Assembly: GCF_025463825.1 (NCBI RefSeq)
Contig: NZ_JAODBG010000106.1
Span: 1 to 64,000, forward strand
DNA from: Cryobacterium sp.
Lineage (GTDB): Bacteria; Actinomycetota; Actinomycetes; Actinomycetales; Microbacteriaceae
DNA: 64,000 bases
Direction: 5' to 3'
The notes under the pieces were generated by a model. It was given only the letters and a program-made list of their open reading frames with translations, made no database searches and had not been told where the DNA came from. A program made the translations under genes and the position numbers. Below are positions 21,230-57,166 of the stretch, piece after piece; the first letter of the stretch is position 1; the number at the start of each line of letters is the position of its first letter.

Positions 21230-23505
21230 GCGACCCCGTCGACCTCCTGGTCGGCGGCATGACCTGCGCTTCCTGCGCCGCGCGCATCGAGAAGAAGCTC
21301 AACCGTCTGCCCGGAGTGGAAGCCACGGTGAACTACGCCACCGACAAGGCCACCGTGCGCCTGCCGGCGGGCACCAGCGTCGACGACGCCATCGCCACGA
21401 TCGTGGCCACCGGCTACACCGCACGACTGCCCGCCCCGCCCGCCGAGACAATTCCGGTGGTTCTGGATGCCGAGACCCTGGCCCTGCGCCAGCGGCTGCT
21501 GGTCTCCACCGCCCTCGCCGTGCCGGTGACGCTACTCTCGATGGTTCCCGCCCTGCAGTTCACCAACTGGCAGTGGCTCGCCCTGATGCTCGCCGCCCCG
21601 GTGGCGGTCTGGGGCGCCTGGCCATTCCACCGCGCCGCCGCACTGAACGCCCGCCACGGCGCCGCCAGCATGGACACCCTGATCAGCGTCGGCGTGCTGG
21701 CCGCATTCGGCTGGTCGCTCTATGCCCTGTTCCTCGGCGACGCCGGCATGACCGGCATGACCATGGAATTCAGCTTCAGCATGACCGGCAGTGGGTCCAC
21801 CGAGATCTACCTCGAGGTCGCCGCCGCCGTGACCGTGTTCATCCTGGCCGGGCGCTACTTCGAGGCCCGCGCCAAGACCCGCTCGGGCGCCGCCCTCACG
21901 GCGCTGGTGAACCTCGGCGCGAAAGATGTCGCGGTGCTGCGCGGCGCGCCGGGCACCGCCCTCGAACGGCGCATCCCGATCGGCGAGCTCGTCGTCGGCG
22001 ATGTCTTCGTGGTGCGGCCGGGCGAGAAGGTCGCCACCGACGGGGTCGTCGTCGACGGCGCCTCCGCCATCGACACCAGCCTGCTCACCGGCGAGGCCGT
22101 ACCCGTCGAGGTGGGGCCGGGCGACACCGTCGTGGGCGCCACCGCCAACTCGGGCGGCCGCCTCACCGTGCGCGCCACCCGGGTGGGCGCCGACACCGAA
22201 CTGGCCCGCATCGGCCGGCTCGTGGAGCAGGCCCAGTCGGGCAAGGCCCCGGTGCAGCGGCTCGCCGACCGGGTGTCGGCGGTCTTCGTGCCCATCGTGT
22301 TCGTCATCGCGCTGGGCACCCTCGTCACCTGGCTGGCCCTCGGCGCCGGCGCGGAGCAGGCGTTCACCGCCGCCGTGGCCACCCTGATCATCGCCTGCCC
22401 GTGCGCCCTGGGCCTGGCCACGCCCACCGCACTGCTGGTGGGCACCGGCCGCGGCGCCCAGCTCGGCATCTTGATTCGCGGACCGCAGACCCTGGAATCC
22501 ACCCGCAAGGTCGACACCATCGTGCTCGACAAGACCGGCACCGTCACGACCGGGCGGATGGCGTTGCTCGGCGTGCACGTCGGGGCCGGGGTATCCGCGG
22601 GCACCGCCGACGGCCCCGCGGGTGCGACCGCCGAAACCGAGCTGCTGCGGCTGGCCGGCGCGGCCGAGGCCGGCTCCGAGCATCCGATCGGTCTCGCCAT
22701 CACGAACGGCGCGACCGACCGCGCCGGGGTGTTGCCGGCCGCTACCGCCTTCGCCTCGGCGCAGGGCTTCGGGGTGCAGGCGAGTGTCGAGGGTCACCTG
22801 GTGCTCGTGGGCCGGCCGCGCTGGTTGGCCGACGAGTGGCAGGTGACGCTGCCGGCCGACCTCGCCGCGGCCCTGGCCGGCATAGAGGCGCGCGGGCAGA
22901 CCGCCGTGGCCGTGGCCTGGGATGGCGCCGCCAAGGGCATCCTCGCCGTCGCCGACGAAGTGAAGCCCACGAGCGCCGCCGCCGTGGCCCAACTGATCGC
23001 GCTCGGCCTCACCCCGATGCTGCTGACCGGCGACAACCCCACCGTGGCGCGGGCCGTGGCGGACCAGGTGAGCATCACCGAGGTCTTCGCCGGGATGCTG
23101 CCCGCCGACAAGGTGGCCAGGGTGCAGAGCCTGCAGGCCGCCGGGCACGTGGTGGCGATGGTGGGAGACGGCGTGAACGATGCTGCCGCGCTGGCCGCCG
23201 CCGACCTGGGCATCGCCATGGGCACCGGCACGGATGTGGCGATCGAGGCCAGCGACATCACCCTGGTGCGGGCTGACCTGCTCGCCGTGGCGGACGCCAT
23301 CCGGTTGTCGCGGCGCACCCTTGGCACCATCAAGGCCAACCTGTTCTGGGCGTTCGCCTACAACGTGGCGGCGATCCCGCTGGCCGCCCTCGGCCTGCTC
23401 AACCCGCTGATCGCGGGCGCGGCGATGGCGTTGTCGTCGGTCTTCGTGGTGAGCAACAGCCTGCGCCTGCGCGGCTTCCGGCCCGCCGTGAGCGACGCGC
23501 GCTGA
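21226..23505 (+). CDS. copA: Cu(I)-exporting P1B-type ATPase
   Basis: 759 residues. The N-terminal metal-binding domain has GMTCASC. Eight transmembrane helices include the copper channel motif CPC (C391, C393). The phosphorylation site DKTGT is at D435, the SEHP histidine-proline motif lies near residue 485 and the hinge is MVGDGVNDAAAL. Together these identify a Cu(I) exporter of the inner membrane. Translation starts with GTG overlapping the copZ stop. The length is usual for actinobacterial CopA. Confidence 0.95.
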   Translation: MSDPVDLLVGGMTCASCAARIEKKLNRLPGVEATVNYATDKATVRLPAGTSVDDAIATIVATGYTARLPAPPAETIPVVLDAETLALRQRLLVSTALAVPVTLLSMVPALQFTNWQWLALMLAAPVAVWGAWPFHRAAALNARHGAASMDTLISVGVLAAFGWSLYALFLGDAGMTGMTMEFSFSMTGSGSTEIYLEVAAAVTVFILAGRYFEARAKTRSGAALTALVNLGAKDVAVLRGAPGTALERRIPIGELVVGDVFVVRPGEKVATDGVVVDGASAIDTSLLTGEAVPVEVGPGDTVVGATANSGGRLTVRATRVGADTELARIGRLVEQAQSGKAPVQRLADRVSAVFVPIVFVIALGTLVTWLALGAGAEQAFTAAVATLIIACPCALGLATPTALLVGTGRGAQLGILIRGPQTLESTRKVDTIVLDKTGTVTTGRMALLGVHVGAGVSAGTADGPAGATAETELLRLAGAAEAGSEHPIGLAITNGATDRAGVLPAATAFASAQGFGVQASVEGHLVLVGRPRWLADEWQVTLPADLAAALAGIEARGQTAVAVAWDGAAKGILAVADEVKPTSAAAVAQLIALGLTPMLLTGDNPTVARAVADQVSITEVFAGMLPADKVARVQSLQAAGHVVAMVGDGVNDAAALAAADLGIAMGTGTDVAIEASDITLVRADLLAVADAIRLSRRTLGTIKANLFWAFAYNVAAIPLAALGLLNPLIAGAAMALSSVFVVSNSLRLRGFRPAVSDAR

Positions 23506-23521
23506 GCCCGGCCGCACACGC

Positions 23522-23566
23522 GAAAAGCCACTTAGCGTCCTGTGAAGGGGCCCCAACTGTCATCTC
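23522..23566. repeat. Paired intergenic palindrome, locus 1, unit 1
   Basis: A degenerate member of the repeat family also seen at 29.1 and 36.0 kb. The right arm ends CCCCAACTGTCATCTC, and its complement GAGATGACAGTTGGGG matches the family arm GAGATGCCAGTTGGGG. From 23527 it shares 36 of 40 bases with unit 2 as a direct repeat. It lies between the convergent ends of copA and the MFS gene. Confidence 0.75.
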
Positions 23567-23583
23567 ACCGATGCCCCCCGCGG

Positions 23584-23638
23584 GAGATGCCACTTCAGGC
23601 CACTTAGAGTTCCGTGAAGGGACCCCAACTGTCATCTC
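23584..23638. repeat. Paired intergenic palindrome, locus 1, unit 2
   Basis: Left arm GAGATGCCACTTCAGG and right arm CCCCAACTGTCATCTC form an imperfect inverted repeat of 55 bases. It is separated from unit 1 by 17 bases. The rest of this 241-base gap (23506-23746) shows no gene. Confidence 0.75.
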
Positions 23639-23746
23639 GGAAGAGCGAGCCGCTCTGCGGGGCACAGCCAACCACATCCCGCCCCCAGCAAGTACTGGAC
23701 GGCACCCGACAGAAACTCAACGCTGCGGGCGCGCCCGAGGCGGCGT

Positions 23747-25279
23747 CTATCCGCGGGGGCGCATGCTCAGCTGCACGGCTGCCGCGGCGATGAGCATCAG
23801 CACCACGGCGATGATCGACGTGACGCCCACTCCGCTGTCGAACGCCGCCCTGGCGGACTGGGTGAGCGCGGCGGCCTGCGCGGCCGGCAGTTCCCCGGCC
23901 ACGCCGAGCGCGCCACCGAGGGTCTCGCCGGCCTGGGCGGCCTGGCCGCGGCCGAGCCCGTCGGGCAGCACCACACCAGCCCGGTATGAGGCCGCCAGGA
24001 TCGCGCCGAGCACGGCCGTGCCCAGCACCGCACCCAGTTCGTAGGCGGTCTCCGAGACACCGGCGGCCGCGCCGGCCTTCTCCGGCGGCACCGAGCTGAT
24101 GATGGTGTCGTTGGAGATGGTCTCGGCCGAGCCGACGCCCACCGAGAGAATGCCGAACGCGAGCATCACGACGCCGGCGCTGAGGTTGTCCCGCAGCAGC
24201 ACGATCAGGCCGAAGCCGCCGGCGGAGAGCAGGATCCCCGCCACGATCACCACCCGCGGCGGGACCCGCCGCACCACGTAGGCGGAGGCTAGGCCGGCAG
24301 CGACGGAGAGGAGCGCGCCGGGCAGCAGCAGCAGTCCGGCGGCGAGCGGGTCGAGGCCGAGCACGAGTTGCAGGTGCTGTGACACGAAGAAGAGGAAGCC
24401 GACCAGGCTGAACACGGACAGGAAGTTCGCCAGCACCGACCCGGCGAACGGGGCGTGCCGGAACAGGCCCAGGTCAAGCAGCGGGTTGTCGATCCGCCGC
24501 TGCCGGCGCAGGAACAGCGCCCCGGCGACGAGGCTGAGCCCCAACGCGCCCAGACCGGGGGCGCCGACGCCGTCGTGGGCGAGGGTCTTGATCGCGAACA
24601 CCAGCGGCGCGAGGGTGAGCAGCGACAGCGCGACGCTGACCAGGTCGATGCCCAGCGGCGCCGGGTCCTTCGACTCCGGGATGAGGACCCCGGCGAGAGC
24701 GACGAGCGGCAGCAGGAACGGCACCGCGATGAGGAACACCGCGCCCCAGGCGAAGTGTTGCAGCACGACACCGCCGACGATCGGCCCGAGGCTCGAGCCC
24801 GCGGCGAACGCGCCGGCCCAGATCGCGATGGCCAGGGTGCGCTGGCGGGCATCCCGGAACATGCTGCGCAGCAGCGACAGGGTGGAAGGCATGATCATGG
24901 CGCCGAAGAAACCCATCACCGCCCGGGCGGCGATCAGCAGCTCGGCGGTGGGCGCGAAGGCGGCGGCGACCGAGACCACGACGAAGCCCGTGGCGCCGAG
25001 CAGCAGCAGCCGGCGGCGGCCGACGCGGTCACCGAGGGCACCCATCGCAACGAGCAGGCCGGCGAGCACGAGCGGGTAGATGTCCACGATCCAAAGCAGC
25101 GTGGTGCTGCTCGGGCGCAAATCCAGGCTGATGGCCGGCAGGGCGAAGCTGAGCACTGTGTTGTCGACCGAGATCAGCAGCACTGGAAGCATCAGCAGCA
25201 GCAGGCCCAGCCACTCCCGACGGCCGGCACGGGGCGCCACGGTTGGGGTGTGGGTACGGATGCTGTCGATGGTGCTCAT
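23747..25279 (-). CDS. DHA2-type MFS drug transporter
   Basis: 510 residues with 14 likely helices, of the SmvA/QacA-like branch. It shows LISVDNTVLSFALPAISLDL in helix 1, motif A MGALGDRVGRRRLLL and motif C-like GSSLGPIVGGVVL in helix 5. It is a proton antiporter for cationic drugs or biocides. A TetR gene diverges from it and is its likely repressor. It shares little sequence with the MFS protein at 9-10 kb beyond family motifs. Confidence 0.92.
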   Translation of the reverse strand: MSTIDSIRTHTPTVAPRAGRREWLGLLLLMLPVLLISVDNTVLSFALPAISLDLRPSSTTLLWIVDIYPLVLAGLLVAMGALGDRVGRRRLLLLGATGFVVVSVAAAFAPTAELLIAARAVMGFFGAMIMPSTLSLLRSMFRDARQRTLAIAIWAGAFAAGSSLGPIVGGVVLQHFAWGAVFLIAVPFLLPLVALAGVLIPESKDPAPLGIDLVSVALSLLTLAPLVFAIKTLAHDGVGAPGLGALGLSLVAGALFLRRQRRIDNPLLDLGLFRHAPFAGSVLANFLSVFSLVGFLFFVSQHLQLVLGLDPLAAGLLLLPGALLSVAAGLASAYVVRRVPPRVVIVAGILLSAGGFGLIVLLRDNLSAGVVMLAFGILSVGVGSAETISNDTIISSVPPEKAGAAAGVSETAYELGAVLGTAVLGAILAASYRAGVVLPDGLGRGQAAQAGETLGGALGVAGELPAAQAAALTQSARAAFDSGVGVTSIIAVVLMLIAAAAVQLSMRPRG

Positions 25280-25318
25280 GTCAACCTGGCTGCAGAACGG
25301 GTTCCGAAGAACACTTAT

Positions 25319-25371
25319 TTTACTGCACCATTGGGTACAGCAGAAACGACTATACCAGCAAGTACAGTAAA
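25319..25371. promoter_or_regulatory. Operator region between MFS and TetR genes
   Basis: An AT-rich gap carries TTTACTG (25319-25325) facing CAGTAAA (25365-25371), with GTACAG half-sites at 25335 and 25362. Such multiple half-sites fit a TetR dimer covering both divergent promoters. Confidence 0.5.
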
Positions 25372-25380
25372 GTGGGGATC

Positions 25381-25914
25381 ATGGCCCAACACCGTGACAG
25401 CGCCCGCGAGAGCATCCTCACCGCGTTCCAGGAACTCATCATCGGAACGAGCGGTTCCGGCGCCTCCCTGGACGCCGTGGCCAAGGCCGCCGGGGTCACC
25501 AAGGGCGGCCTGCTCTACCATTTCGGATCCCGAGACGGCCTGGAGAGCGCCCTCATCGACCGGCTCGAGACTCTCGCCGGCCTCGAATACGAGCGGATGC
25601 GCATGGCTCCACAGGGAGCCGCCGCGTACTACGTGAGCCTGGCGGAGTACGTCAACAGCCCGCTGGACCGGGCGATGCTCGCCGGCGGCACCCTGGCCCG
25701 CGGCAACCCGCGGGCCCGCAGTGTGGTCGTCGAGATGCGCCGGCGCTATTTCGACATCCTCAACGCCGACCTGAACGATGCCGAACTCGCCCGCGCGACC
25801 ATGCTGCTCACCGACGGCCTGTATTACGACGCGACGACGATCGGCACCCCGTTCGACGACGAACTCGACATCCCCGCATTCCTGGCCCGTGTGCTTCCGC
25901 GAGCACGACCCTAG
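25381..25914 (+). CDS. TetR-family regulator
   Basis: 177 residues. The N-terminal DNA-binding helices include ASLDAVAKAAGVTKGGLLYHF, a classic TetR recognition helix (residues about 28-48). The C-terminus matches a short TetR_C_37-like ligand domain. The long upstream open frame is antisense-like; the ATG at 25381 is the family start. It probably represses the divergent MFS gene. Its stop overlaps the end of the next, convergent gene by four bases. Confidence 0.9.
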   Translation: MAQHRDSARESILTAFQELIIGTSGSGASLDAVAKAAGVTKGGLLYHFGSRDGLESALIDRLETLAGLEYERMRMAPQGAAAYYVSLAEYVNSPLDRAMLAGGTLARGNPRARSVVVEMRRRYFDILNADLNDAELARATMLLTDGLYYDATTIGTPFDDELDIPAFLARVLPRARP

Positions 25915-26684
25915 GCCGCCTGGGCGACCTCTGCGGCGGTCGTGGCGCGGAAGAGGGACGCCAGGAGGAGTGGCAGCTGGGCGGCGGGGGAACCCGGCGC
26001 CTCCGGGTGCCACTGCACCCCGACGATGGGGACGTCGCGGTGCTCGACGGCTTCGACCAGGCCGTCGGGTGCGGTCGCCACGGGCACCAGCCCGGCGCCG
26101 AGGCGGCCCACGCTCTGGTGATGGGCGCTCTGCACGGAGATGCGGGTGTCGCCCAGCGCCGCGGCGAGCTCACTGGAGGCGAGCAGGGTGACGTCGTGGG
26201 TGGAGAGGCTCTCGTCGATGGGCACGCCCGCGTTGCGGTGGATGCCGTCGTCGAGGTGTTGCACGATGTCGCCGCCGAGTGCCACGTTGATGATCTGCAG
26301 GCCGCGGCAGATGCCCAGCAGGGGCGTGCCCCGGTCGGCGGCGCGCTGCACGAGCGCGATCTGACCCTCGTCGGCGTCGCTGAAGTGGATGGTCTCGCCT
26401 TCGTAGCCGGCCTGGGCGCCGTAGAAACGCGGGTCGATGTCTTCGCCGCCGACGATCACGACGGCGTCGGCCGAATCGGTCAGGTCGAGCAGGGCGGCGG
26501 GGTCGAGGTCGGCGGCGGCCAGGCGCACGACGGTCCAGCCGCCGTTCGTGCCGGCATCCGCGACGGTGGCGTTAAGGGTCTGCACCTTGGCGTGGTACGC
26601 GGGGCGGTCGGGCCGGCTGCGGGTGACCTCGACAACGGCGAGGGTGGGCCGGGCGGTCATCGCGGCGAGATCGTGGGTGGTCAT
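25911..26684 (-). CDS. Gamma-glutamyl-gamma-aminobutyrate hydrolase-like (peptidase C26)
   Basis: 257 residues of the class I glutamine amidotransferase fold. The nucleophile elbow is LLGICRGLQIINVALGG, and the triad is completed by VQWHPE near the C-terminus. PuuD-like enzymes cut gamma-glutamyl bonds in polyamine breakdown. No other puu gene lies nearby, so the substrate may be another gamma-glutamyl compound. GGAGG upstream supports the ATG at 26684. Confidence 0.88.
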   Translation of the reverse strand: MTTHDLAAMTARPTLAVVEVTRSRPDRPAYHAKVQTLNATVADAGTNGGWTVVRLAAADLDPAALLDLTDSADAVVIVGGEDIDPRFYGAQAGYEGETIHFSDADEGQIALVQRAADRGTPLLGICRGLQIINVALGGDIVQHLDDGIHRNAGVPIDESLSTHDVTLLASSELAAALGDTRISVQSAHHQSVGRLGAGLVPVATAPDGLVEAVEHRDVPIVGVQWHPEAPGSPAAQLPLLLASLFRATTAAEVAQAA

Positions 26685-26886
26685 TCTCGCCTCCGTGACG
26701 GGGAATGGGTGCGGACGCGGACGGTTGCCGCTGTTCCCAGTGTGCCTGAGGCCGCCGCCGCGGCGCCGGCCGGCGGTAACAGAGTGCAACAGTCCGGCAG
26801 GCGGGGTTCCTAGCCGCTGCTGGCCCGGGGTCCTATGCTCGATGGGAATCTGCCGCACGTGACGGCAGCTCTAGGAAGTGGACCCC

Positions 26887-29058
26887 ATGCAGCCAGGCCG
26901 CCCGCGCATCCGACCGACGATCACCCGGATCGCCGCCCGCACGGCGGTGTTCGCGGCGGCCATCGGGCTGGTCAGCGCCGGCCTGGTGGGCGCCGGTCTC
27001 GGCGCTCCGCTGCCGGCCAGGGCGGACGACCCGGTGCAATTCGAGGAGAGCCACATCTTCGACAGTGTCGGCGCCCTCGGCGACCGGGAGCCGGAGGTGG
27101 CGCAGGCCCTCGACGAGCTCTTCGCCGACACCCAGGTCGACCTGTACGTGGCCTATGTGTCGAGCTTCGACGGGGTGGATGACACGTCGACCTGGGCCGA
27201 CCAGACCGCCGTCGACAACGGGTTCGGCGACAACGACGTGCTGCTGGCCGTGGCGACCGACGACCGGCAGTACCAGCTGTCCGTGGCGAGCGATTTCGTG
27301 CTCGACGACGCGCAGCTCAGTGAGGTGCAGAACACCGCGATAGAACCGTCGCTGCGCGAGAACGACTGGGCCGGCGCCGCGATCAACGGCGCCACCGCCC
27401 TGCAGCAGAGCGTGGACGGCGAACCGCTCTCCGCCCCGGTGATCACACCGGGCGAGGCCACCACCACCGGCTCCGGCGGCCTGCCCGGCTGGGTGGGCCT
27501 GCTGCTGGCTCTGGTGGTGCTGGCCGTGATCGTCACCATCGTGATCCTGTTGGTGCGCCGCCGCGGGAAGTCCCCCGCGGTCCGGCCAGGCACCGGCGCG
27601 CCGGAGGTGCCGACGGCGGAGCTGAAGCGGGAGGCATCCAGCGCGCTCATCGAGACCGACGACGCGATCAAGACCAGCGGCCAGGAGGTAGGCTTCGCCG
27701 TCGCGCAGTACGGGGCGGCGGCGGCCGAACCGTTCCAGGCGGCGGTGAGCACCGCAGCGGGCAAGCTGAGCGAGGCGTTCACCCTGCAGCAGCGCCTGGA
27801 CGACGCCGAACCCGACACCGAGGAGCAGGTGCGAGCCTGGTACCGCCAGATCATCACCCTCTGCGCCGAGGCCAACCACGCCCTGGACGAGCAGGCCGAG
27901 GACTTCGACCAGCTGCGCCAGCTGGAGGCCAACGCACCGACCGCCGCGGCCGAGCTGGAAACCGAGCTGGCCGCCATCGACGCCCGGCTCGACGAGGCCG
28001 AAGCGGGCGTGGAAGCCCTCGCCGGCCGGTACACCGCCGCGGCGCTGGACACCGTCGCCGACAACCCCGATCAGGCCGCCGAACGGCTCACTTTCGCCAC
28101 CAACGCGCTGGCGGAGGCGCGCGCGCGGCTCACCGCCGGCGATGCGAGCGCCGCGGCCGTGGGCATCCGGGCCGCGGAGGAGGCCGTGGACCAGGCGAAG
28201 CTGCTCGTCGACGCGGTTCACCGGCTGGCCGCCGACCTCGAGCAGGTGGAGGCCGGCATCCCGGCGATCCTGGCCGACCTCGACTCCGATCTGGTCACCG
28301 CCCGCGGGCTCCCCGCCGGTGCCGGCAACGCGGTTCCCGGCGTCGCCCTGCAGACCGAGCAGGTTCTCGCCGACGTGCGTTCCCGCCTGGCCGCGCCGCC
28401 GATCAACCCGATCGAGCTGGTGCAGAAACTCGAGGCGGCGAACGTCAATATGGATGCTGCCCTCCAGGGTGCCCGGGACGCCGCGCTGCAGGCGCAGCGC
28501 CTGAACCAGGCGCTGAACCAGAGCATGCAGGCCGCCCGCAGCCAGGTGTCGGCGGCGGACGACTTCATCACCGCCCGGCGCGGCGCGGTGGGGGCCGAGG
28601 CCCGCACCCGACTGGCCGAGGCCGCCCGGCTGACGGCGCAGGCCGAATCACTGGTCGCGAGCGACTCGGCCGCGGCCCTGGCGGTCTCCCAACGGGCCGG
28701 ATCCCTGGCCGCCGAGGCGACGGCCATGGCCCGGCGCGACGTGGATGGGTTCTCCACCGACGACGATGACGACTTCAGCGACTTCTTCGGCGGTGGCGGC
28801 ACCAGCCGGCGCGGCGGCAGCAATGGTTCGATGGGCGCCGTGCTCGGCGGCATCCTGATCGGCCAGATCCTCGGCGGCGGCGGGGGCGGTGGCGGCTTCG
28901 GCGGCGGCGGAGGCGGCGGAGGCGGTGGCGGCTTCGGCGGGATGGGCGGTGGCGGCCGACGCAGCAGCGGTGGCGGCTTCGGCGGTGGCGGCTTCCGGCC
29001 CGGCAGCTTCGGCGGCGGCGGCACCCGCGGCCGGCGCGGCGGCGGCGGCCGCTTCTAG
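26887..29058 (+). CDS. TPM-domain membrane protein with coiled coil and Gly-rich tail
   Basis: About 723 residues. A signal peptide ending in PLPARA is followed by an extracytoplasmic TPM domain (residues about 40-170, with FGDNDVLLAVATDDRQYQL). One transmembrane helix, GLLLALVVLAVIVTIVILLV, comes next. A long Ala/Glu-rich coiled-coil region of about 400 residues is followed by a tail of mostly Gly, Phe and Ser. TPM proteins of this layout are found beside PspA in many actinobacteria, where both deal with membrane stress; here PspA lies 3.8 kb further on. AGGAAG is eight bases before this ATG; a GTG three codons earlier is possible. Confidence 0.85.
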   Translation: MQPGRPRIRPTITRIAARTAVFAAAIGLVSAGLVGAGLGAPLPARADDPVQFEESHIFDSVGALGDREPEVAQALDELFADTQVDLYVAYVSSFDGVDDTSTWADQTAVDNGFGDNDVLLAVATDDRQYQLSVASDFVLDDAQLSEVQNTAIEPSLRENDWAGAAINGATALQQSVDGEPLSAPVITPGEATTTGSGGLPGWVGLLLALVVLAVIVTIVILLVRRRGKSPAVRPGTGAPEVPTAELKREASSALIETDDAIKTSGQEVGFAVAQYGAAAAEPFQAAVSTAAGKLSEAFTLQQRLDDAEPDTEEQVRAWYRQIITLCAEANHALDEQAEDFDQLRQLEANAPTAAAELETELAAIDARLDEAEAGVEALAGRYTAAALDTVADNPDQAAERLTFATNALAEARARLTAGDASAAAVGIRAAEEAVDQAKLLVDAVHRLAADLEQVEAGIPAILADLDSDLVTARGLPAGAGNAVPGVALQTEQVLADVRSRLAAPPINPIELVQKLEAANVNMDAALQGARDAALQAQRLNQALNQSMQAARSQVSAADDFITARRGAVGAEARTRLAEAARLTAQAESLVASDSAAALAVSQRAGSLAAEATAMARRDVDGFSTDDDDDFSDFFGGGGTSRRGGSNGSMGAVLGGILIGQILGGGGGGGGFGGGGGGGGGGGFGGMGGGGRRSSGGGFGGGGFRPGSFGGGGTRGRRGGGGRF

Positions 29059-29068
29059 CCTTCCCGGC

Positions 29069-29123
29069 GAGTTGCCGGTTGGCGCCCCTCGCCGCCCGGT
29101 GAGGGGGCACGAAGTGGCAACTT
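29069..29123. repeat. Paired intergenic palindrome, locus 2, unit 1
   Basis: Left arm GAGTTGCCGGTTGGCGCCCC faces right arm GGGGCACGAAGTGGCAACTT across a loop of about 15 bases. Fourteen of the 20 positions pair. Confidence 0.85.
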
Positions 29124-29141
29124 AGGTGTCCCCGCGGCGGC

Positions 29142-29196
29142 GAGATGCCAGTTGGGGCCCATTGCGCACCCGGGCAGGGGCCTCAAGTGGCATCTC
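29142..29196. repeat. Paired intergenic palindrome, locus 2, unit 2
   Basis: Left arm GAGATGCCAGTTGGGGCCC faces right arm GGGGCCTCAAGTGGCATCTC. It lies 18 bases after unit 1, between the convergent ends of the TPM and oxidase genes. Confidence 0.85.
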
Positions 29197-29209
29197 GCGG
29201 GTCGCCGGC

Positions 29210-30319
29210 TCAGCGGTCGAGGGCGAACAGGGGCGGCGCGGGGATGTCCAGCGTCAGGTCGGCGAGGATGCGGCCGACGGTGGGGGTGAACTTGAAGCCG
29301 TGGCCGGAGAACCCGGCGCCGACGATCACGGGGCCGCGCCGGTCCAGCACGAAATTCGAGTCCGGGCTGGTCGTGTAGGTGCAGCTGATCTCGGTGAAGA
29401 CGTCCGGGTCGGCGCCGGGCAGCCATTCGCGGGCGTAGCGGCGCAGCGCCAGCAGCTGCTCGGGCTCCGAGGTGAATGTGCGGTGGTCGGGGTCCACGAC
29501 CGGGCCCACCCCGTGCCAGCCGGCCTTGATGCCCTCGCCGGGGGTGTGCATGCCGTAGACCGGGGAGCGCCAGTATTCGTAGCCGGGGGTGCCCGGCCGG
29601 TAGCCGTGGTTGAAGCCCGGCCAGACGAAGCTGGTATCCAGCGCGGCGAAATGCGCCGGCTGCTCCTGCGTGACCACCAGGCGCGGCACCGGCAGCAGCC
29701 CGTCGAGCAGTGAGCTGGTCCACGCGCCGAGCGTGACGATCACCCGCCGCGCCTGGAAGAGTTCGGTGTCGGTGTCCACGAGCACGCTCTCGTCGCCCTG
29801 CACGGTGATCCGGGTCGCGGGCCTACCGTGCTCGATCCGGGCGCCGCGCCGGGCTGCGGCACGCTGCAGGGCGTCGACCGACGCATTCGCGTTCACCCGG
29901 CCGGCCTCCGGCGTGTAGAGCACCTCGGTGTCGAAACGGATGCCCGGCCAGCGCTCCTGCGCGGCGGCGACGGAAAGCATCGTCGGGTCGAAGCCCACCC
30001 CGCTGAGGGCGGCGTGTACCTCGGCGAACGGCTGGCCCTGGCCGTGATTGACAAGGCCCACCTGGTCGAGCAGCCGGGTGTCGGTCTCGTCCTCGAGTTC
30101 GCGCCACAACTGCAACGCCTCCACGAGCATGGCCACGTAGGTGGGGTCCGAGTAACTGAGGTTGAAGTTGCGGGAGGCACCGTGCGAAGCGCCGTTGGTG
30201 TGGCCGGACGCGAACCGTTCGAGCAGGATGACCTCGCGGCCGCGGCGGGCGAGCTCCCAGGCGGCCGCCGAGCCCATCGCTCCCCCGCCGAGGATCAGGG
30301 TGTCGACACGGGTGGTCAT
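29210..30319 (-). CDS. Sarcosine/N-methyl amino acid oxidase-like flavoprotein
   Basis: 369 residues of the monomeric sarcosine oxidase/SolA family. The N-terminal FAD site is LILGGGAMGSAAAWELARRG. The cysteine in ISCTYTTSPDSNFVLD matches the residue that binds FAD covalently in sarcosine oxidase. The reaction would be oxidative demethylation of an N-methyl amino acid, giving formaldehyde and peroxide. It is the last gene of a four-gene operon, and its ATG overlaps the stop of the GNAT gene by four bases. Confidence 0.88.
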   Translation of the reverse strand: MTTRVDTLILGGGAMGSAAAWELARRGREVILLERFASGHTNGASHGASRNFNLSYSDPTYVAMLVEALQLWRELEDETDTRLLDQVGLVNHGQGQPFAEVHAALSGVGFDPTMLSVAAAQERWPGIRFDTEVLYTPEAGRVNANASVDALQRAAARRGARIEHGRPATRITVQGDESVLVDTDTELFQARRVIVTLGAWTSSLLDGLLPVPRLVVTQEQPAHFAALDTSFVWPGFNHGYRPGTPGYEYWRSPVYGMHTPGEGIKAGWHGVGPVVDPDHRTFTSEPEQLLALRRYAREWLPGADPDVFTEISCTYTTSPDSNFVLDRRGPVIVGAGFSGHGFKFTPTVGRILADLTLDIPAPPLFALDR

Positions 30320-30801
30320 GCGGGCAGCATCCGTTCGTAGCACTTGGAGAACCAAATCGCCTCGTACGGCGGGTAGATGGGGATGGCCCGGTGGCCGAGG
30401 TGTTCGTAGAGGCGCACCGCCTCTGGCTGCCGGTCGCCGGTCTGGAGGATCAGGCGCGGGGCGCCTCGGTCGGCTGCCGCGTCCTCGACGGCGCGGATGA
30501 GCGCCTTGCTCAGGCCACGGCCCCGGTAGTCCGGCAACGTGACGAGGCGCTTGAGCTCGTATTCCGAGCCGAGCATGCGCAGGGCGGCGTGCGCGGCGGG
30601 CACGCCGTCGACCGTGGCGATCAGCGTGACCACCATGGTCTCCGGGTCGATGGTGAACGTCGCGGCGCGGGCGGCGGCATCCGCCGCGTCGGGGTTCTCG
30701 AAGCGGTCCGCGTACCGAGGCATGATCTCGTCGTCCATGGCCGCCCGGAGCGCGACGGCCCGCGGGTCGGTCCAGTCGACGGTGTGGAGCTGCACAGTCA
30801 T
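30316..30801 (-). CDS. GNAT-family N-acetyltransferase
   Basis: 161 residues. The acetyl-CoA loop reads LVTLPDYRGRGLSKALIRAVED, near residues 88-109, and is followed by the GDRQPEAVRLYEHLGH strand-helix. It lies between the M20 peptidase and the oxidase with four-base overlaps on both sides, so the three are co-translated. The target is unknown but may be an amino compound handled by the same operon. Confidence 0.9.
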   Translation of the reverse strand: MTVQLHTVDWTDPRAVALRAAMDDEIMPRYADRFENPDAADAAARAATFTIDPETMVVTLIATVDGVPAAHAALRMLGSEYELKRLVTLPDYRGRGLSKALIRAVEDAAADRGAPRLILQTGDRQPEAVRLYEHLGHRAIPIYPPYEAIWFSKCYERMLPA

Positions 30802-32129
30802 CCGAGCACCTCCCGCACGGTGAAGTCGAGGGCGGCGACGGTGAGGGCGATCGAGTCGACGTCGATGCGTTCGTCGTTGCCGTGGAAGAGCATCCGGAAG
30901 GTGCCGTAGTCCCAGCGTGGGCTGAGCAGGCCGAAGCCGTAGGCGGGGATGCCGCGGCGCCGGTAGAACCGGGCGTCGGAGCCGCCGACGCTGAGCACCG
31001 GCAGCAGGTCGGCGTTCGGGTAGGCGCGGGCCACGGCCGAGCTGAGCGCGGCGAACAGGGGCGTGTCCACGGGCGAGCGGGTGGCGCCCTCGAAGCTCTC
31101 GCCGACGATGTCGATGTCGACCATCAGGTCGCCCAGCGCCTGCCGGAGGTACGCGTCCACATTCACGGCGTCGACGCCAGGCAGCACCCGGATGTCCAAC
31201 TCGACCGTGGCCATCGACGGGATGACGTTCTGCTTGTCGCCGGCGCGCACGATGTTGGGCGAGATGGTGGTGTGGCTGGAGGCGTGCGCAAACCCGGCCA
31301 GGCTGCCCAGCTCGTGCACGGCACCGTCGATGCCGGCCGGGTCGACCAGCCGGGCGGAAAGCTCAGCGGACAGACCCAGCACGCTCACGTAGTGCCGCCA
31401 GTCGTCCGTGATCTGCACGGGCGCCTCGAAGCGGGCCAGCCGCATCACGGCCTCCGCCGCGGTCACGGCGGCGTTGCGGGCACCCCACGGTGCGGAGCCG
31501 TGCCCCGGGGTGCCGTGCACCACCAGGCGGCGGCCGGCGATGCCCTTCTCGCCCACCGTGGTGGTGATCGACGGCCGCACGCCCACGGGCGCCCCACCGG
31601 ATTCGGTGAGCACGAAGTCGGCGTCGATCAGGTCGAGCCGGTGCTCGGTGAGCCAACCCACACCGTACCGGCTGCCGCTCTCCTCGTCGGCGACCGCCGC
31701 GAAGATCAGGTCGCCGCGCGGCCGGAAGGCCCCGGTGGCGAGGTCCCGGATCACGACGGCGTAGCTGGCGGTGAGGTAGAGCATGTCGAGGGCCCCGCGG
31801 CCCCAGATCTCACCGTTGACGAGCTCGGCGCCGAACGGGTCCCGGCTCCAGCCGTCCCGGTCCACCGGCACCACGTCGATGTGGCCGACCAGCGCGAGCG
31901 ACGGCGCATCCGGGTCGGTGCCGCGGATGCGCGCGATCAACGATGCGCGCCCCGGGTGCGGTTCCACGATCTCGATGTCGAGCCCGGAGCCGGCAAAGAA
32001 CCCCTCCAGGGTGCGGACGCTGCGGATCTCACCGCCGGAGTCTGCGGTGCCGTCGTTGACGCAGGCGTTGCGGATGAGGTCGCGCAGCAGGTCGACGGTC
32101 TGGCGGGTGAGGACATCCGGATCGGTCAT
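30798..32129 (-). CDS. M20-family metallopeptidase/deacylase
   Basis: 443 residues. Zinc ligands are visible in LVGHIDVVPVD, in GRGALDML and in the catalytic ADEESGSRYG, and a dimerisation domain starts near GTPGHGSAPWGARN. The GALDML form, in place of GAxDMK, is typical of the branch that includes PM20D1-like N-acyl amino acid hydrolases. It probably releases amino acids from peptides or acyl conjugates. Its ATG overlaps the stop of the upstream hydrolase gene (TGATG). Confidence 0.88.
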   Translation of the reverse strand: MTDPDVLTRQTVDLLRDLIRNACVNDGTADSGGEIRSVRTLEGFFAGSGLDIEIVEPHPGRASLIARIRGTDPDAPSLALVGHIDVVPVDRDGWSRDPFGAELVNGEIWGRGALDMLYLTASYAVVIRDLATGAFRPRGDLIFAAVADEESGSRYGVGWLTEHRLDLIDADFVLTESGGAPVGVRPSITTTVGEKGIAGRRLVVHGTPGHGSAPWGARNAAVTAAEAVMRLARFEAPVQITDDWRHYVSVLGLSAELSARLVDPAGIDGAVHELGSLAGFAHASSHTTISPNIVRAGDKQNVIPSMATVELDIRVLPGVDAVNVDAYLRQALGDLMVDIDIVGESFEGATRSPVDTPLFAALSSAVARAYPNADLLPVLSVGGSDARFYRRRGIPAYGFGLLSPRWDYGTFRMLFHGNDERIDVDSIALTVAALDFTVREVLG

Positions 32130-32680
32130 CAGCGCACCATTCCCGCCAGGCTCTCGGCGAACTCGTCCAGGATCGCGCGGCCAGCCGGCCAGGCTCCGAG
32201 GTTACTGGCGCTGTTGATGTGCCCGATGCGGCCCACCTCGACGAAGCCGGCACCCCAGGAGGTCGCCAACTTGCGCGCGATGCCGAGCGCGCACAAGCGG
32301 TCATCGGCGCTGGCCACGACCAGGGCCGGGGTGCCCAGCACCGTCGGTTCGGCGGCCCGGAAGGTGCCGGCGACCGCAGGGAACTCGGCGCCGAACCGGT
32401 CGGGCGGGGCCACCAGCAGGGCGCCGCGCACCCGGCCGGGGTTCCGGGCCAGCCAGGCGGCGGCGGCCAGGCAGCCGAGGCTGTGCGCCACGATGATGGT
32501 GTCGGGCGAGTCGACGGCCGCGTCGATCGCGGCGATCCAGTCGTCGAGGTCGGGTTCGTCCCACGATGCCGGGCTGATCCGCACGGCATCGCTCTGCGTC
32601 GCCTCCCAGCGGGTCTGCCAATGCTTCTGATTGGAGTTGTTGATGCCCGGCACGATCGTCAGGCTCAGGGGGGTCGGCAT
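32129..32680 (-). CDS. RBBP9/YdeN-family serine hydrolase
   Basis: 183 residues. The start TIVPGINNSNQKHWQTRWE and the nucleophile elbow AHSLGCLAAAAWL are characteristic of the RBBP9/YdeN alpha-beta hydrolases. The acid and base are likely in ASADDRLC and GRIGHINSAS. It is the first gene of the operon that continues with M20 peptidase, GNAT and oxidase. The substrate is unknown. Confidence 0.88.
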   Translation of the reverse strand: MPTPLSLTIVPGINNSNQKHWQTRWEATQSDAVRISPASWDEPDLDDWIAAIDAAVDSPDTIIVAHSLGCLAAAAWLARNPGRVRGALLVAPPDRFGAEFPAVAGTFRAAEPTVLGTPALVVASADDRLCALGIARKLATSWGAGFVEVGRIGHINSASNLGAWPAGRAILDEFAESLAGMVR

Positions 32681-32827
32681 GGTGGTGATCCTCGACGGTC
32701 GTATCGGCTGGGCGTATCGGCGTGTGGAAACACACTAGCCGTCGCAGGGAAGCTGCCGATGAATCGGGCGGATGTGGAGGTGAACGCGGTAGTTTCTTAG
32801 CGTTGACCCCTTTGAAAGGACACTCAC

Positions 32828-33559
32828 ATGACCAAGCAGTCGATCTTCGGCCGCATCGCCCAGCTCACCAAGGCGAACATCAACGCTCTGCTGGACTCGG
32901 CGGAAGACCCCCAGAAGATGCTCGACCAGATGGTGCGTGACTTCACCAACAGCATCGCCGACGCCGAAAGCGCCATCGCCGAGACCATCGGCAACCTCCG
33001 CCTGCTCGAAGACGACCACCGCGAAGACGTGCAGGCGGCCGGCGAGTGGGGCCGCAAGGCCCTGGCCGCCAGCCGCAAGGCCGACGAGCTGCGTTCGGCC
33101 GGCAACACCGTCGACGCCGACAAGTTCGACAACCTCGCCAAGGTCGCCCTGGGCCGTCAGCTGACCAGCGAGAACGAGGCCAAGGCGGCCGAACCGCAGA
33201 TCGCGAGCCAGACGGCCATCGTCGAGAAGCTCAAGACCGGCCTGAACACGATGAAGACCAAGCTGGGCCAGCTCACCGCCAAGCGCAGCGAGCTCATCGC
33301 CCGGTCGAAGACCGCGGCCGCGCAGTCCCAGGTGATGGATGCCGTGAAGAGCATCGACATGCTGGATCCCACCAGCGAGGTCAGCCGGTTCGAAGACAAG
33401 ATCCGCCGTGAAGAGGCCAAGGTGCGCGGCGCCAGCGAGCTGGCCGAGTCCAGCCTCGACGCGCAGTTCGAAAGCCTCGACGACCTCGGCGAACTCACCG
33501 AGGTGGATGCCCGTCTCGCCGCGCTGAAGTCCGGCACGCCCTCTTCGATCGAGCAGTAA
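32828..33559 (+). CDS. pspA: PspA/IM30-family membrane-stress protein
   Basis: 243 residues, almost wholly helical, starting MTKQSIFGRIAQLTKANINALLD, the amphipathic membrane-binding helix of the family. Long heptad regions follow (AESAIAETIGNLRLLEDDHRE; KLKTGLNTMKTKLGQLTAKR, in part). PspA oligomers support damaged membranes. AAAGGA lies eight bases before the ATG. The frequent TPM-protein partner is encoded upstream, beyond a reverse operon. Confidence 0.92.
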   Translation: MTKQSIFGRIAQLTKANINALLDSAEDPQKMLDQMVRDFTNSIADAESAIAETIGNLRLLEDDHREDVQAAGEWGRKALAASRKADELRSAGNTVDADKFDNLAKVALGRQLTSENEAKAAEPQIASQTAIVEKLKTGLNTMKTKLGQLTAKRSELIARSKTAAAQSQVMDAVKSIDMLDPTSEVSRFEDKIRREEAKVRGASELAESSLDAQFESLDDLGELTEVDARLAALKSGTPSSIEQ

Positions 33560-33584
33560 CGTCCTTCGTCACACGGCGTCATCT

Positions 33585-33615
33585 GAACGGCCACGGGAAG
33601 CTCCCGTGGCCGTTC
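33585..33615 (+). terminator. Terminator after pspA
   Basis: A perfect 14-base stem, GAACGGCCACGGGA with its complement TCCCGTGGCCGTTC, has a three-base loop and is followed by the T-rich CTGTATTGTT. Confidence 0.85.
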
Positions 33616-33630
33616 TGTATTGTTCCCTGC

Positions 33631-34290
33631 ATGACTACTCTCGGAATCATCGGTGCCGGTAACATCGGCAGCCAGCTCGCCCGCCTCGGCGTGGCCAACG
33701 GATACGACGTCGTGGTGAGCAACTCCCGCGGCCCCGCAACCCTCGAAGCACTGGTCGAGGAGCTCGGGCCACGCGCCCGCGCCGCCCTCCCGGCCGAAGC
33801 CGCGACGGCCGGTGACCTGGTCATCGTCACCATTCCGCTCCACCAGATCCACACGCTGCCGACGGCCGAACTGGCCGGCAAGCTCGTCATCGACACCAAC
33901 AACTACTACCCCCAGCGAGACGGCGCCATCGTCGCCCTCGACGAGGAGACCACCACCACGGCCGAGCTGCTGCAGGACCTGCTGCCGGATGCCCGGGTCG
34001 TGAAGGCGTTCAACCACATCTACGCCGCCGATCTCACCACGGATGGCTTGCCCGCCGGCACCGCGGAGCGCCGCGCCCTGGTCATCGCCGGCAACGACCC
34101 CGAGGCCCGCGACTCCGTCGCGGCGCTGCTGGACGATTTCGGCTTCGACACCGTCGACCTCGGCCCGCTCAATGAGGGCTGGCGCATCCAGCGCGACACC
34201 CCGGGCTACGGCCCGCGCCTGGCCGCGTTCGAGCTGCGTGAGGCCGTCAGCACGGCCATCCGCTACCGCGACATGCAGCAGGCCGTGTAG
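33631..34290 (+). CDS. NADPH-dependent F420-reductase-like NAD(P)-binding protein
   Basis: 219 residues with an N-terminal nucleotide site LGIIGAGNIGSQLARLGVANG and the VSNSRGP loop that commonly reads phosphate of NADP. The downstream VIVTIPLHQI and FNHIYAADLT segments fit the F420-dependent NADP reductase and homologues of unknown substrate. The gene starts 16 bases after the pspA terminator, so the mRNA leader must be very short. Confidence 0.8.
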   Translation: MTTLGIIGAGNIGSQLARLGVANGYDVVVSNSRGPATLEALVEELGPRARAALPAEAATAGDLVIVTIPLHQIHTLPTAELAGKLVIDTNNYYPQRDGAIVALDEETTTTAELLQDLLPDARVVKAFNHIYAADLTTDGLPAGTAERRALVIAGNDPEARDSVAALLDDFGFDTVDLGPLNEGWRIQRDTPGYGPRLAAFELREAVSTAIRYRDMQQAV

Positions 34291-34345
34291 CGCCTGACCC
34301 GCGAATTGGCGGATGCGCCGGGCAGGGACACAGGAGCATACTGAG

Positions 34346-35182
34346 GTGGTGTCCCCCAACTACGTGGTCGTCCCGCAGTGGCAAGGTTCTGTTTCACCCC
34401 GCGCGATGCGCCTCGTTGACGGGGCGGAGGCGATCAAGGGCGACCTGCCGTACTCGGTCACCTACCCGGTCGATGTACCCGCCGAGGCCGGCGATTCGCT
34501 CGACACCGGCGTGCACCGCTACTCCTCGCTGTTGACCGTGCGGGACCGGCAGCTGGCCGTGCTGCGCACCAGCTCCGAACCGGTGCTCACCATCGGCGGC
34601 GACTGCGGGGTCTCCTGCGGCGCGGTCGAGCACGCCTCCCGGCTGCACCCGGGCGACATCGCCCTGGTCTGGTTCGACGCGCATCCCGACCTGCACTCCA
34701 GCGAGTCCTCGCAGTCCGGCGGCTTCGGCGGCATGGTGCTGCGCGCCATCCTCGGTGAGGGAGTCGATGGGCTCGCCCTCGACGCGGATGCCCGCATCAC
34801 GCCCGACCGGGTGGTGCTGGCCGGCGTGCGCGACGTCGACCCGGCCGAGGACGTCTTCATCACCGAACACGCCATCCCGCTGATACCGGTGGAGAGTTTC
34901 GGCAGCCCGGATGCCCTCGTCGCCGCCGTGAAACGCACCGGAGCGGCGCACATCTACCTGCACATCGACCTGGACGTGCTCGACCCGGCCACCATCGTGG
35001 GCCTGTCGAACATCTACCCGTTCGGCCTGGCCGTGGAGGCCCTCACCGGCGCGATCATGGCGCTGCGCGCCGAGTTCGCCCTGGCCGGCGCCACCATCGC
35101 GGGCTTCGCGCCGTCCTCTGCCGAGGCCGCGAACGACGACCTGCCCAGCATCCTGCGCATCATCAGCGCGCTCACCCGCTGA
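34346..35182 (+). CDS. Arginase/agmatinase-family protein
   Basis: About 278 residues of the ureohydrolase fold. Metal motifs are GGDCGVSCG, DAHPDLHS and HIDLDVLDP. In true arginases the first motif is GGDHS; here Cys replaces the metal-binding His, as in some actinobacterial members of unproven activity. AGGAG lies nine bases before the GTG at 34346, and a second GTG follows directly. The substrate may be a guanidino compound or formimino compound. Confidence 0.8.
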   Translation: MVSPNYVVVPQWQGSVSPRAMRLVDGAEAIKGDLPYSVTYPVDVPAEAGDSLDTGVHRYSSLLTVRDRQLAVLRTSSEPVLTIGGDCGVSCGAVEHASRLHPGDIALVWFDAHPDLHSSESSQSGGFGGMVLRAILGEGVDGLALDADARITPDRVVLAGVRDVDPAEDVFITEHAIPLIPVESFGSPDALVAAVKRTGAAHIYLHIDLDVLDPATIVGLSNIYPFGLAVEALTGAIMALRAEFALAGATIAGFAPSSAEAANDDLPSILRIISALTR

Positions 35183-35210
35183 CCCTCGCCGATCGAAGGA
35201 GATCGACCAT

Positions 35211-35999
35211 ATGACGGATGAACCGCGCGTCGTGATTGAGCGGCGGGGGCACCTGCTCCTGATCGGGCTCAACCGGCCTCAGAAGCGCAACGCCGCCGAC
35301 TTCGCCATGCTGCAGGAGCTCGCGCTGGCGTATGGGGAATTGGAGCGGGATCCCGAGCTGCGGGTGGGGGTCGTGCATGCTCTCGGCGAGCACTTCACTG
35401 CCGGGCTCGACCTGGCAGACGTGGGTCCCCGGCTCGGACCGGACGGGATCGAAATCGTACCGGAGGGCGGCATCAACCCCTGGCAGGTCGACGGCACAAC
35501 GCTGAGCAAACCGGTGGTCATCGCCGTGCAGGGCACCTGCCTCACCCTGGGCATCGAGCTGATGCTGGCCAGCGACATCGTGGTGGCCGCCGAGTCCACC
35601 CGGTTCGGCCAGATCGAGGTGAGCCGGGGCATCCTGCCGTTCGGCGGCGCCACCATCCGATTCCCCCGCGCGGCCGGCTGGGGCAACGCCATGCGGTGGC
35701 TGCTCACCGGCGACCTGTTCGACGCCAGGGAGGCCCTCCGGATGGGTTTGGTGCAGGAGATCGTGCCCAACGGCCGGCAACTGCACCGAGCGATCGAACT
35801 GGCCGAACGTATCGCCGCGCAGGCACCGCTCGCCGTGCAGGCCACCCTCGCCAGCGCCCGCACCGCCTCCCGCGACGGCGCCGCGGCCGCCGAGACCGGG
35901 CTGCAACCGGCACTGGCCCGCCTGGCCGCCTCCACCGATGCCCGCATCGGCATGGAAGCGTTCCTCTCCCGCACCCCCGCCGAGTTCCAGGGCCGCTGA
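35211..35999 (+). CDS. Enoyl-CoA hydratase/isomerase-family (crotonase) protein
   Basis: 262 residues. The oxyanion-hole strands are HFTAGLDLADV and GTCLTLGIELMLASDIVVA. Of the two catalytic Glu of enoyl-CoA hydratase, the first is kept (QIEVSRGILPFGG) and the second is replaced by Arg (NAMRWLLTGD instead of AMExxLTG). The reaction may therefore differ from simple hydration. AAGGAG lies nine bases before the ATG. The cellular role is unclear from context. Confidence 0.85.
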   Translation: MTDEPRVVIERRGHLLLIGLNRPQKRNAADFAMLQELALAYGELERDPELRVGVVHALGEHFTAGLDLADVGPRLGPDGIEIVPEGGINPWQVDGTTLSKPVVIAVQGTCLTLGIELMLASDIVVAAESTRFGQIEVSRGILPFGGATIRFPRAAGWGNAMRWLLTGDLFDAREALRMGLVQEIVPNGRQLHRAIELAERIAAQAPLAVQATLASARTASRDGAAAAETGLQPALARLAASTDARIGMEAFLSRTPAEFQGR

Positions 36000-36022
36000 C
36001 GGCTCCCGCACGCTGCCGTCGT

Positions 36023-36081
36023 GTGAGTTGCCAGTTGGCGCCCACTCCCAAGGTCTTAATGCGCGTCAACTGGCGACTCAC
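36023..36081. repeat. Paired intergenic palindrome, locus 3, unit 1
   Basis: Left arm GTGAGTTGCCAGTTGGCGCC faces right arm GCGTCAACTGGCGACTCAC across about 17 bases. It lies between two genes read in the same direction. Confidence 0.85.
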
Positions 36082-36095
36082 CGGCGCGAGCATCG

Positions 36096-36154
36096 GTGAG
36101 ATGCCAGTTCGTGCCCCCTCAGGATCCGGGAGACGGCGCCAAGTGGCAACTCAC
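36096..36154. repeat. Paired intergenic palindrome, locus 3, unit 2
   Basis: Left arm GTGAGATGCCAGTTCGTGCC faces right arm GGCGCCAAGTGGCAACTCAC. It follows unit 1 after 14 bases and ends 51 bases before the next gene. Confidence 0.85.
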
Positions 36155-36204
36155 GGATGCTGGGGCGCTGGCGTCTGTGCGGGAACGGTGGGTAGGCTGC
36201 CACG

Positions 36205-57100: not shown

Positions 57101-57166
57101 AACTGTTCCCCGTGCGGACTTCTGCACCCGGTGTGCCGGGTCCTTTTGTCCGGACGGGGAACAGTT
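57101..57166. repeat. Long palindrome at the prpE truncation point
   Basis: AACTGTTCCCCGTGCGGAC and GTCCGGACGGGGAACAGTT pair at 18 of 19 positions around a 28-base loop. The loop holds its own hairpin ACCCGG/CCGGGT followed by CCTTTT. It lies between the prpE remnant and the convergent SDR stop, so it may also end transcription. Confidence 0.85.

Follow-up and report, generated by a model that had tools for sequence, protein, structure and literature searches.

Three intergenic gaps in a 64,000-nucleotide stretch of a Cryobacterium sp. genome (contig NZ_JAODBG010000106.1, positions 1 to 64,000; hereafter the window) each hold two copies of one palindrome, which we call the unit. These units belong to a dispersed repeat family of rigid 55-bp geometry that spans several genera. 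The unit-bearing genomes tested lack Y1 transposases, and one nuclease gene is recurrently framed by units whose type matches that gene's subclade. We consider it probable that the units form a population resembling REPINs (repetitive extragenic palindromic (REP) doublets forming hairpins), in which the unit-flanked AbiEi-like/DUF559 nuclease would be the cognate protein and the analogue of the REP-associated tyrosine transposase (RAYT).

Geometry, abundance and pairing of the units

Each of the five intact window units, read directly in the sequence, is an imperfect palindrome of exactly 55 bp that ends in 14-bp arms, GAGWTGCCASTTGG, in inverted order. Locus 1 consists of a diverged first unit (23522..23566; 33 bits and E 6e-6 with the covariance model R1, described below), a linker of 17 bp by the unit coordinates (23567..23583) and a 55-bp unit (23584..23638; 58.7 bits) between convergent Cu P-type ATPase and major facilitator superfamily genes. 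At locus 2, the first unit (29069..29123; 58.5 bits) lies 10 bp past the stop of a TPM-domain gene and the second (29142..29196; 69.8 bits) 13 bp from the 3′ end of a DAO-family oxidoreductase gene, with an 18-bp linker between them (29124..29141). Locus 3 starts 25 bp past an enoyl-CoA hydratase gene and joins units at 36025..36079 (59 bits) and 36098..36152 (63.5 bits) through another 18-bp linker (36080..36097). The linkers of loci 2 and 3 were read in the sequence, and no strand is assigned to any of these features. In the window and the other loci of its genome, partners lie 17–18 bp apart with a period of 72–73 bp.

The original prediction of two units of one palindrome family at each of the three gaps was therefore borne out, with a diverged first unit at locus 1, as were the arms it described (A/T at position 4, G/C at position 10). 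Its palindromes stood, but their proposed range of 45–59 bases did not, the intact window units all measuring 55 bp. The 14–18 bases it placed between partners narrowed to 17 bp at locus 1 and to 18 bp at each of the other two loci. Rfam gave no match to the window at gathering cut-offs.

The units are commoner than chance would allow: the pattern GAGWTGCCASTT occurs 32 times in the 3.53-Mb genome, compared with 0 occurrences of the reversed pattern. Within 105,381 bp comprising the window and fetched loci of the same genome, 29 of 31 units measured 55 bp and the other 2 measured 54 bp. A count restricted to 55 bp gave 29 matches there and 1 in the reversed sequence. R1, built from 29 units, located 41 separate sites genome-wide at E<=1e-3, including one partial match. 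The same length was found in 102 of 103 units from 80 named loci, a set whose fetch pattern itself required 55 bp. When distances of 24–120 bp were allowed, all 14 arm pairs in two contiguous 400-kb Rathayibacter stretches (800 kb), placed by collinearity between already known loci, measured 55 bp. These 800 kb contained one orphan arm and no decayed length variants of units, and their reversed sequences gave one chance pair per stretch.

At least 114 stretches carry the pattern, from Rathayibacter, Naasia, Cryobacterium, Arthrobacter, Haematomicrobium and a Microbacteriaceae strain. Across these Micrococcales the unit interiors are palindromic and genus-specific in sequence, and the length is still 55 bp. 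A scan of 60 related genomes returned matches in 24 of 37 from the same genus (the window genome included) and in 3 of 23 others. Of 396 genomes drawn evenly from the order, 6 (again including the window genome) matched at <=2 mismatches; the control gave none. Two Rathayibacter strains each had at least 150 matches (strands counted apart). In G012 the model gave only 2 matches, probably both strands of one unit, and the fetched unit there adjoins the nuclease gene introduced below. Plasmid and phage origins were considered and rejected: one Rathayibacter unit had no match among 72,556 plasmid records, and IMG/VR contained no exact pattern match.

The fixed pairing noted in the window proved to be a real rule in Cryobacterium. 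Counts of single and paired units favoured pairs in G030 (52 of 59 listed units, with 25 neighbour distances of exactly 73 bp and one of 72) and in G007 (15 of 20). None of the 44 listed units of Naasia G435 or the 27 of G362 was paired, and no pairs at 71–74 bp were seen among them. Among the genomes examined, regular pairing occurred only in Cryobacterium. Interior identity in direct orientation was 0.673 between partners and 0.531 between non-partners, and the direct value for partners exceeded the inverted one (0.522). As partners resemble each other directly and not inverted, bacterial interspersed mosaic element (BIME) is not an exact label. The pairs in Cryobacterium probably arose by local duplication and were kept in phase.

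A nuclease gene framed by the units

RAYT (TnpA-REP) transposases had been suggested, by analogy with BIMEs of other bacteria, as the mobilisers of the units. The Y1_Tnp model (PF01797) matched none of the 37 same-genus genomes, the window genome included, and none of 21 unit-bearing genomes, some of which are also in the same-genus set. The model matched 5 of 14 control genomes, E. coli among them. Y1 was present in 2 of the 60 scanned genomes (G051 and G057), both without units. The RAYT proposal therefore fails, and the suggested Y1 transposase flanked by the same arms has no counterpart in any unit-bearing genome tested.

A different gene occupies this position. Clustering the immediate neighbours of units at the 80 named loci gave no recurrent family that stood out; one emerged only upon listing the genes between two close units, where 6 of the 23 listed genes, from four genera, belong to a single family. 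Its members are ~300 aa long and combine an AbiEi-like region with a C-terminal DUF559 (Vsr-like) nuclease domain. The copy in the window genome lies outside the window, on contig C135. We compared a model of this nuclease with 22,736 open reading frames from 2.65 Mb made up of the window and fetched loci, many of the latter overlapping. Every strong match (E<1e-40) adjoins units, and the single weak match (L191, E 2e-16) is 4.6 kb from one.

Among 15 genomes with a located nuclease, units lie on both sides of the gene in 14 and on one side in G012. The 5′ unit precedes the start codon by 57–133 nt (by 302 nt in G012), with 11 of the 15 genes at 57–81 nt. The 3′ unit is about −36 to +37 nt from the stop, with stop positions in G022 and G004 being approximate. 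One nuclease-flanking unit of R. tanaceti measures 54 bp. Close-unit stretches revealed the gene in G030 (1 of 3 stretches) and Naasia G435 (1 of 8), and in both of these stretches there are units about 1 kb apart. Synteny with deoA-add led to it in G007, G022 and G004, where units again lie on both sides. Its neighbours include deoA/add, a sugar-binding regulator, a DNA alkylation repair gene with ilvD, a SpoU methylase with an aldolase, and a symporter. As they differ between genera, shared synteny does not explain the framing.

At E<=0.05, DUF559 matched 11 of 12 nucleases and MTES_1575 matched 10 of 12, though curated cut-offs were often missed; the AbiEi model of PADLOC matched 9 of 12. 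Relatives in the PDB were 3hrl (E 4e-6) and, as a weak match, 3r3p (E 0.07), a mobile intron protein that we take to be I-Bth0305I. Residues E193 and D226 are invariant and E237 and D239 nearly invariant in 12 sequences, and all four are presumably catalytic. No AbiEii-type (DUF1814) toxin was found among nine neighbour proteins from six of the loci (L047, L338, L157, L341, L202, L183) scanned with Pfam, one of which matched no family.

The nuclease shares features with two known groups of proteins. Like EDxHD homing endonucleases such as I-Bth0305I, it has a Vsr-like domain, with the weak similarity to 3r3p. PMC3943268 describes dimers of I-Bth0305I on a long target, of nearly 60 bp. Unlike these enzymes, the gene described here is framed by two intact units and does not interrupt its site. 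It also resembles the antitoxins of AbiE type IV toxin–antitoxin systems in its similarity to AbiEi models. Sections of PMC7319586 describe AbiEi proteins as binding pairs of 23-bp inverted repeats and AbiEi antitoxins as autoregulating through inverted repeats. Unlike AbiE antitoxins, it has a C-terminal nuclease domain; the nine scanned neighbours included no AbiEii-type toxin.

Within Cryobacterium, the type of the units adjoining the gene varies with the subclade of the nuclease. A second unit type (GASTTGCCGCAAAG) has the length and linker of type 1. With lengths of 36–80 allowed, type 2 gave 43 matches, 25 at 55 bp and 37 at 53–56 bp, compared with a scattered reversed control, and 10 of 11 close neighbours were spaced 18 bp. 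The nuclease genes of G000 and G030 adjoin type 1 units, those of G022 and G004 type 2 units, and that of G007 type 3 units (GAGARGGCAGTTGG). Type 1 versus type 2 counts in fetched loci were 28 vs 1 in G000, 18 vs 3 in G030, 4 vs 15 in G022 and 2 vs 6 in G004, where nuclease-flanking units are included and thresholds let some units count under both types. The nuclease tree pairs G000 with G030 and G022 with G004. In G004, G007 and G022, nuclease identity is 66–68% and deoA identity 95%; the nuclease thus diverges faster than its neighbour.

Further features accompany these loci. A DnaA-box-like motif (TGTGGATAA, TGTGGACAA or the reverse TTATCCACA, <=1 mismatch) lies upstream of 14 of 15 nuclease genes, preceding the start codon by 47–49 nt (by 70 nt in two Arthrobacter). 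Examples fall in L047 2472-2534, L157 7132-7190, L202 1556-1624, L205 1040-1106 and L183 3912-4021. Of seven exact 9-mers in 125,207 bp of nuclease loci, six sit at these upstream positions. The motif may represent either a DnaA box or the −10 element of a promoter. In G012 (L061), the DNA 5′ of the nuclease also contains a short tandem repeat, GTACTGAC, which separates deoA from the fetched unit. Two other genes found between two units (L186 1798-2514 and L188 6127-6789; Rathayibacter, Naasia) encode a C-terminal DxDxDGxxC-type motif, which we assume to be excalibur-like.

Hairpin interiors, genomic position and copying

Stem pairing was analysed in 39 units from several genera. Inner-stem pairing reached 78.7%, compared with 45.7% in shuffles, and the stem covariation score was 0.749 versus 0.189±0.025 shuffled, with slid controls at <=0.21. 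G-U pairs were rare (17 of 307 paired cells). In 67 distinct Rathayibacter units, a set that takes in two units of another Microbacteriaceae strain, the arms and the loop-side 10-mer CGGCGTGTCG are nearly invariant and the intervening stem covaries, at columns 13/43, 14/42, 16/40 and 17/39. Four of five window units tested folded better than nearly all shuffles. In the window genome, position 4 of the arms is A/T in 53 of 58 cases and positions 10 and 13 are G/C in 55 and 56, and left and right arms vary independently of each other, as would be expected if a protein read them as duplex DNA. These arms favoured a reading of the units as pure duplex-binding sites, which the cross-genus covarying stems then weakened. 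Compensatory change in the variable interior is seen across genera, not within the window genome alone. Covariation could also stem from template switching in quasi-palindromes, without selection.

Units are concentrated near gene ends. We placed 108 of them: 42 lie in convergent gaps, 48 in codirectional gaps, 5 in divergent gaps, 4 within called genes and 9 at the edges of loci. The background, gaps of >=60 nt, comprises 78 convergent, 203 codirectional and 99 divergent cases. Divergent gaps are avoided, and the median distance from a unit to the 3′ end of a neighbouring gene is 22.5 nt. Rathayibacter units are sense to codirectional genes in 22 cases and antisense in 13, which does not decide for or against a function at the RNA level. 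Listed units lean to the origin half in G007 (Kolmogorov–Smirnov p 0.003, 12 loci) and G362 (p 0.05, 27 loci), both numbered from dnaA, recognised by eye. G030 and Naasia G435 have no significant positional bias from base 1, in a numbering that does not begin at dnaA. An origin-proximal bias is suggestive only.

Sequence has been copied between loci, as shown by identical Rathayibacter units at different places. Comparison of 75 Rathayibacter units yielded 32 identical pairs, of which at least one is orthologous; shuffles gave 0.09 (maximum 3). One unit is inverted in place between two Rathayibacter strains, and indels in the strain comparison fall only in the flanks of shared units. Occupancy of the window loci varies among relatives. 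Locus 2 is orthologous in Cryobacterium zongtaii (L098); across 22 genomes it has type 1 pairs in 3, type 2 pairs in 2, both types in 2 and no units in 15, the more distant ones. At locus 3 the pair of the window genome recurs in G030, while G022 has a type 2 unit there, G446 a degenerate pair and five other relatives no unit. Locus 1 has a unit in none of seven relatives compared. An unrelated hairpin sometimes fills an orthologous gap without a unit (L118 1037 vs L136; L324; L326). The window also contains an unrelated 31-bp inverted repeat with a 4-bp spacer, AACTGTTCCCCG..., at 57101-57166.

Comparison with REPINs and competing explanations

In E. coli BIMEs, REP partners alternate in inverted orientation, and the paired palindromes lie in intergenic 3′ regions. 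The units share this placement. Unlike BIMEs, they have direct-repeat partners, a length-fixed linker of free sequence and no Y1. The likeness drawn in the original prediction holds for a REP/REPIN-type family and only inexactly for BIMEs. REPINs, as described in PMC3116915, have conserved 16-mers, a fixed spacer length, hairpins and compensatory changes, with spacer length and hairpin capacity named as critical spacer features. As in the REPIN–RAYT systems of Pseudomonas and E. coli, inverted arms stand here at fixed spacing around a hairpin interior with compensatory changes, the places are extragenic, and repeats flank a nuclease gene, here a probably cognate one. Unlike in those systems, the enzyme is of AbiEi/DUF559 type and not a Y1 HUH protein, the unit is 55 bp, and Cryobacterium has tandem direct pairs at 72–73 bp. 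Solitary arms numbered one in 800 kb, compared with 18% singlets among SBW25 REPs in PMC3116915. CGTC-tagged REPs, as described in part of PMC3733652, are likewise palindromic repeats without a known dedicated transposase; they differ in their 8–9 bp stems and CGTC tag, and a candidate enzyme is found here.

As the RAYT is missing, the units are not REPINs by membership. Their anatomy and copying are those of REPINs, and the system works like a REPIN with another nuclease, whose action we infer. The original prediction knew of no such family in these actinobacteria, and a search of open-licence PMC papers likewise found no description of the 55-bp repeat. An Arthrobacter appears in a count table of PMC12306157, and the main text of PMC3733652 does not contain the terms actinobact, Arthrobacter, Clavibacter, Micrococc or Leifsonia.

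A possible mechanism can be outlined. Two nuclease monomers would attach to a single unit, one at each of its inverted arms, which stand 41 bp apart, about four helical turns. In Cryobacterium pairs the next arm follows after 32 bp, about three helical turns. Nicking or cutting at a unit might then lead to unit-to-unit copying, by hairpin-mediated copying or gene conversion. Such copying would keep units uniform, let them flip in place and occasionally allow them to colonise new gene ends. The upstream unit may double as the operator of the nuclease gene.

Several observations weigh against this proposal. Most loci were fetched for holding units, so the finding that every nuclease is flanked is partly conditioned; only the nucleases of G007, G022 and G004 are free of this. 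Among these, G004 has a weak 5′ unit, scoring 21 of 28, and the 5′ unit of G022 was identified by eye. A nuclease did not turn up in 20 stretches of G362, covering 22 of its 27 listed units, in single stretches of the unit-bearing G443, G230, G442 and G440, or in three G007 stretches fetched before synteny led to the gene. Type 1 is commoner than the nuclease-adjoining type 3 in the fetched loci of G007 (15 vs 8), which were fetched with the type 1 model, favouring type 1. The protein has no NCBIfam match, its MTES_1575 score is at the curated cut-off in 1 of 6 proteins, and in the G218 nuclease Q replaces the nearly invariant E of the EYDG motif. Its structure model is poor (predicted local distance difference test 53) and has no useful PDB fold match. 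The stem in the window genome does not covary (78.4% paired vs 78.5% shuffled, 29 units). In the two-strain Rathayibacter comparison, all 5 units with orthologous flanks are common to both strains and no recent jump is seen; four further units have no orthologous flank in the fetched stretch.

The units might instead be 3′-end punctuation, either bidirectional hairpin terminators or protectors of mRNA 3′ ends, with an incidental nuclease association. Their proximity to gene 3′ ends, the 42 of 108 convergent and only 5 divergent placements, the folding of four window units and the three anecdotes of a replacement hairpin would all suit this explanation. We nevertheless regard it as unlikely, as terminators would need neither a length fixed at 55 bp nor conserved outer arms nor an 18-bp linker, G-U pairs are few and the nuclease framing is left unexplained. 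No T-run follows the window units in the sequence as read, and a terminator scan of 23000-37000, which allows loops of 3–8 nt only, returned 3 sites, none of them a unit. We also give little credence to the units being sites of a chromosome-organising or regulatory protein, with the AbiEi/DUF559 protein binding without copying and the units spreading by ordinary recombination. Arm variation and arm independence in the window genome resemble duplex recognition, the spacing fits whole helical turns, and G007 and G362 show the origin-half lean. Cross-genus covarying stems and identical copies at different loci point rather to hairpin-based copying, and the G030 and Naasia G435 positions, counted from base 1, show no significant bias.

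Alternatively, the nuclease cassette could be a stand-alone homing-type or toxin–antitoxin-derived gene that uses units solely as its operators and boundaries, and dispersed units would then be relics of lost cassettes. The 57–81 nt placement of the 5′ unit in 11 of 15 genes, the AbiEi autoregulation described in sections of PMC7319586, and G012, with what is probably a single unit beside its nuclease, are all compatible with this. It is nonetheless quite improbable given the at least 150 matches in some genomes (strands counted apart) and the 800 kb of Rathayibacter, which hold 14 units, no nuclease match and no decayed length variants. A classical REP/BIME or REPIN system whose Y1 transposase was lost or missed is strongly disfavoured and very hard to credit. 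The anatomy is REPIN-like by the features that PMC3116915 describes, but PF01797 finds nothing in the genus or in unit-bearing genomes while matching E. coli and four other controls, and the Y1-bearing G051 and G057 have no units.

Returning to the nuclease-associated, REPIN-like reading, recurrent flanking of one nuclease gene suggests a previously unrecognised kind of repeat-and-enzyme partnership. We lean, by a modest degree, towards a second partnership that evolved independently, in which an AbiEi–Vsr-like fusion nuclease would recognise, copy, homogenise and coevolve with its own 55-bp palindromes across Micrococcales, with no RAYT homologue. REPINs are a leading model of sequence populations that persist in bacterial genomes and are tied to RAYT nucleases. 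If our proposal is true, a non-homologous cognate nuclease with the same repeat anatomy would show that such a way of life arose at least twice. A DUF559/MTES_1575 subfamily would thereby gain a function, and types 1, 2 and 3 within one genus would provide a natural series of diverged nuclease–site pairs for studies of specificity.

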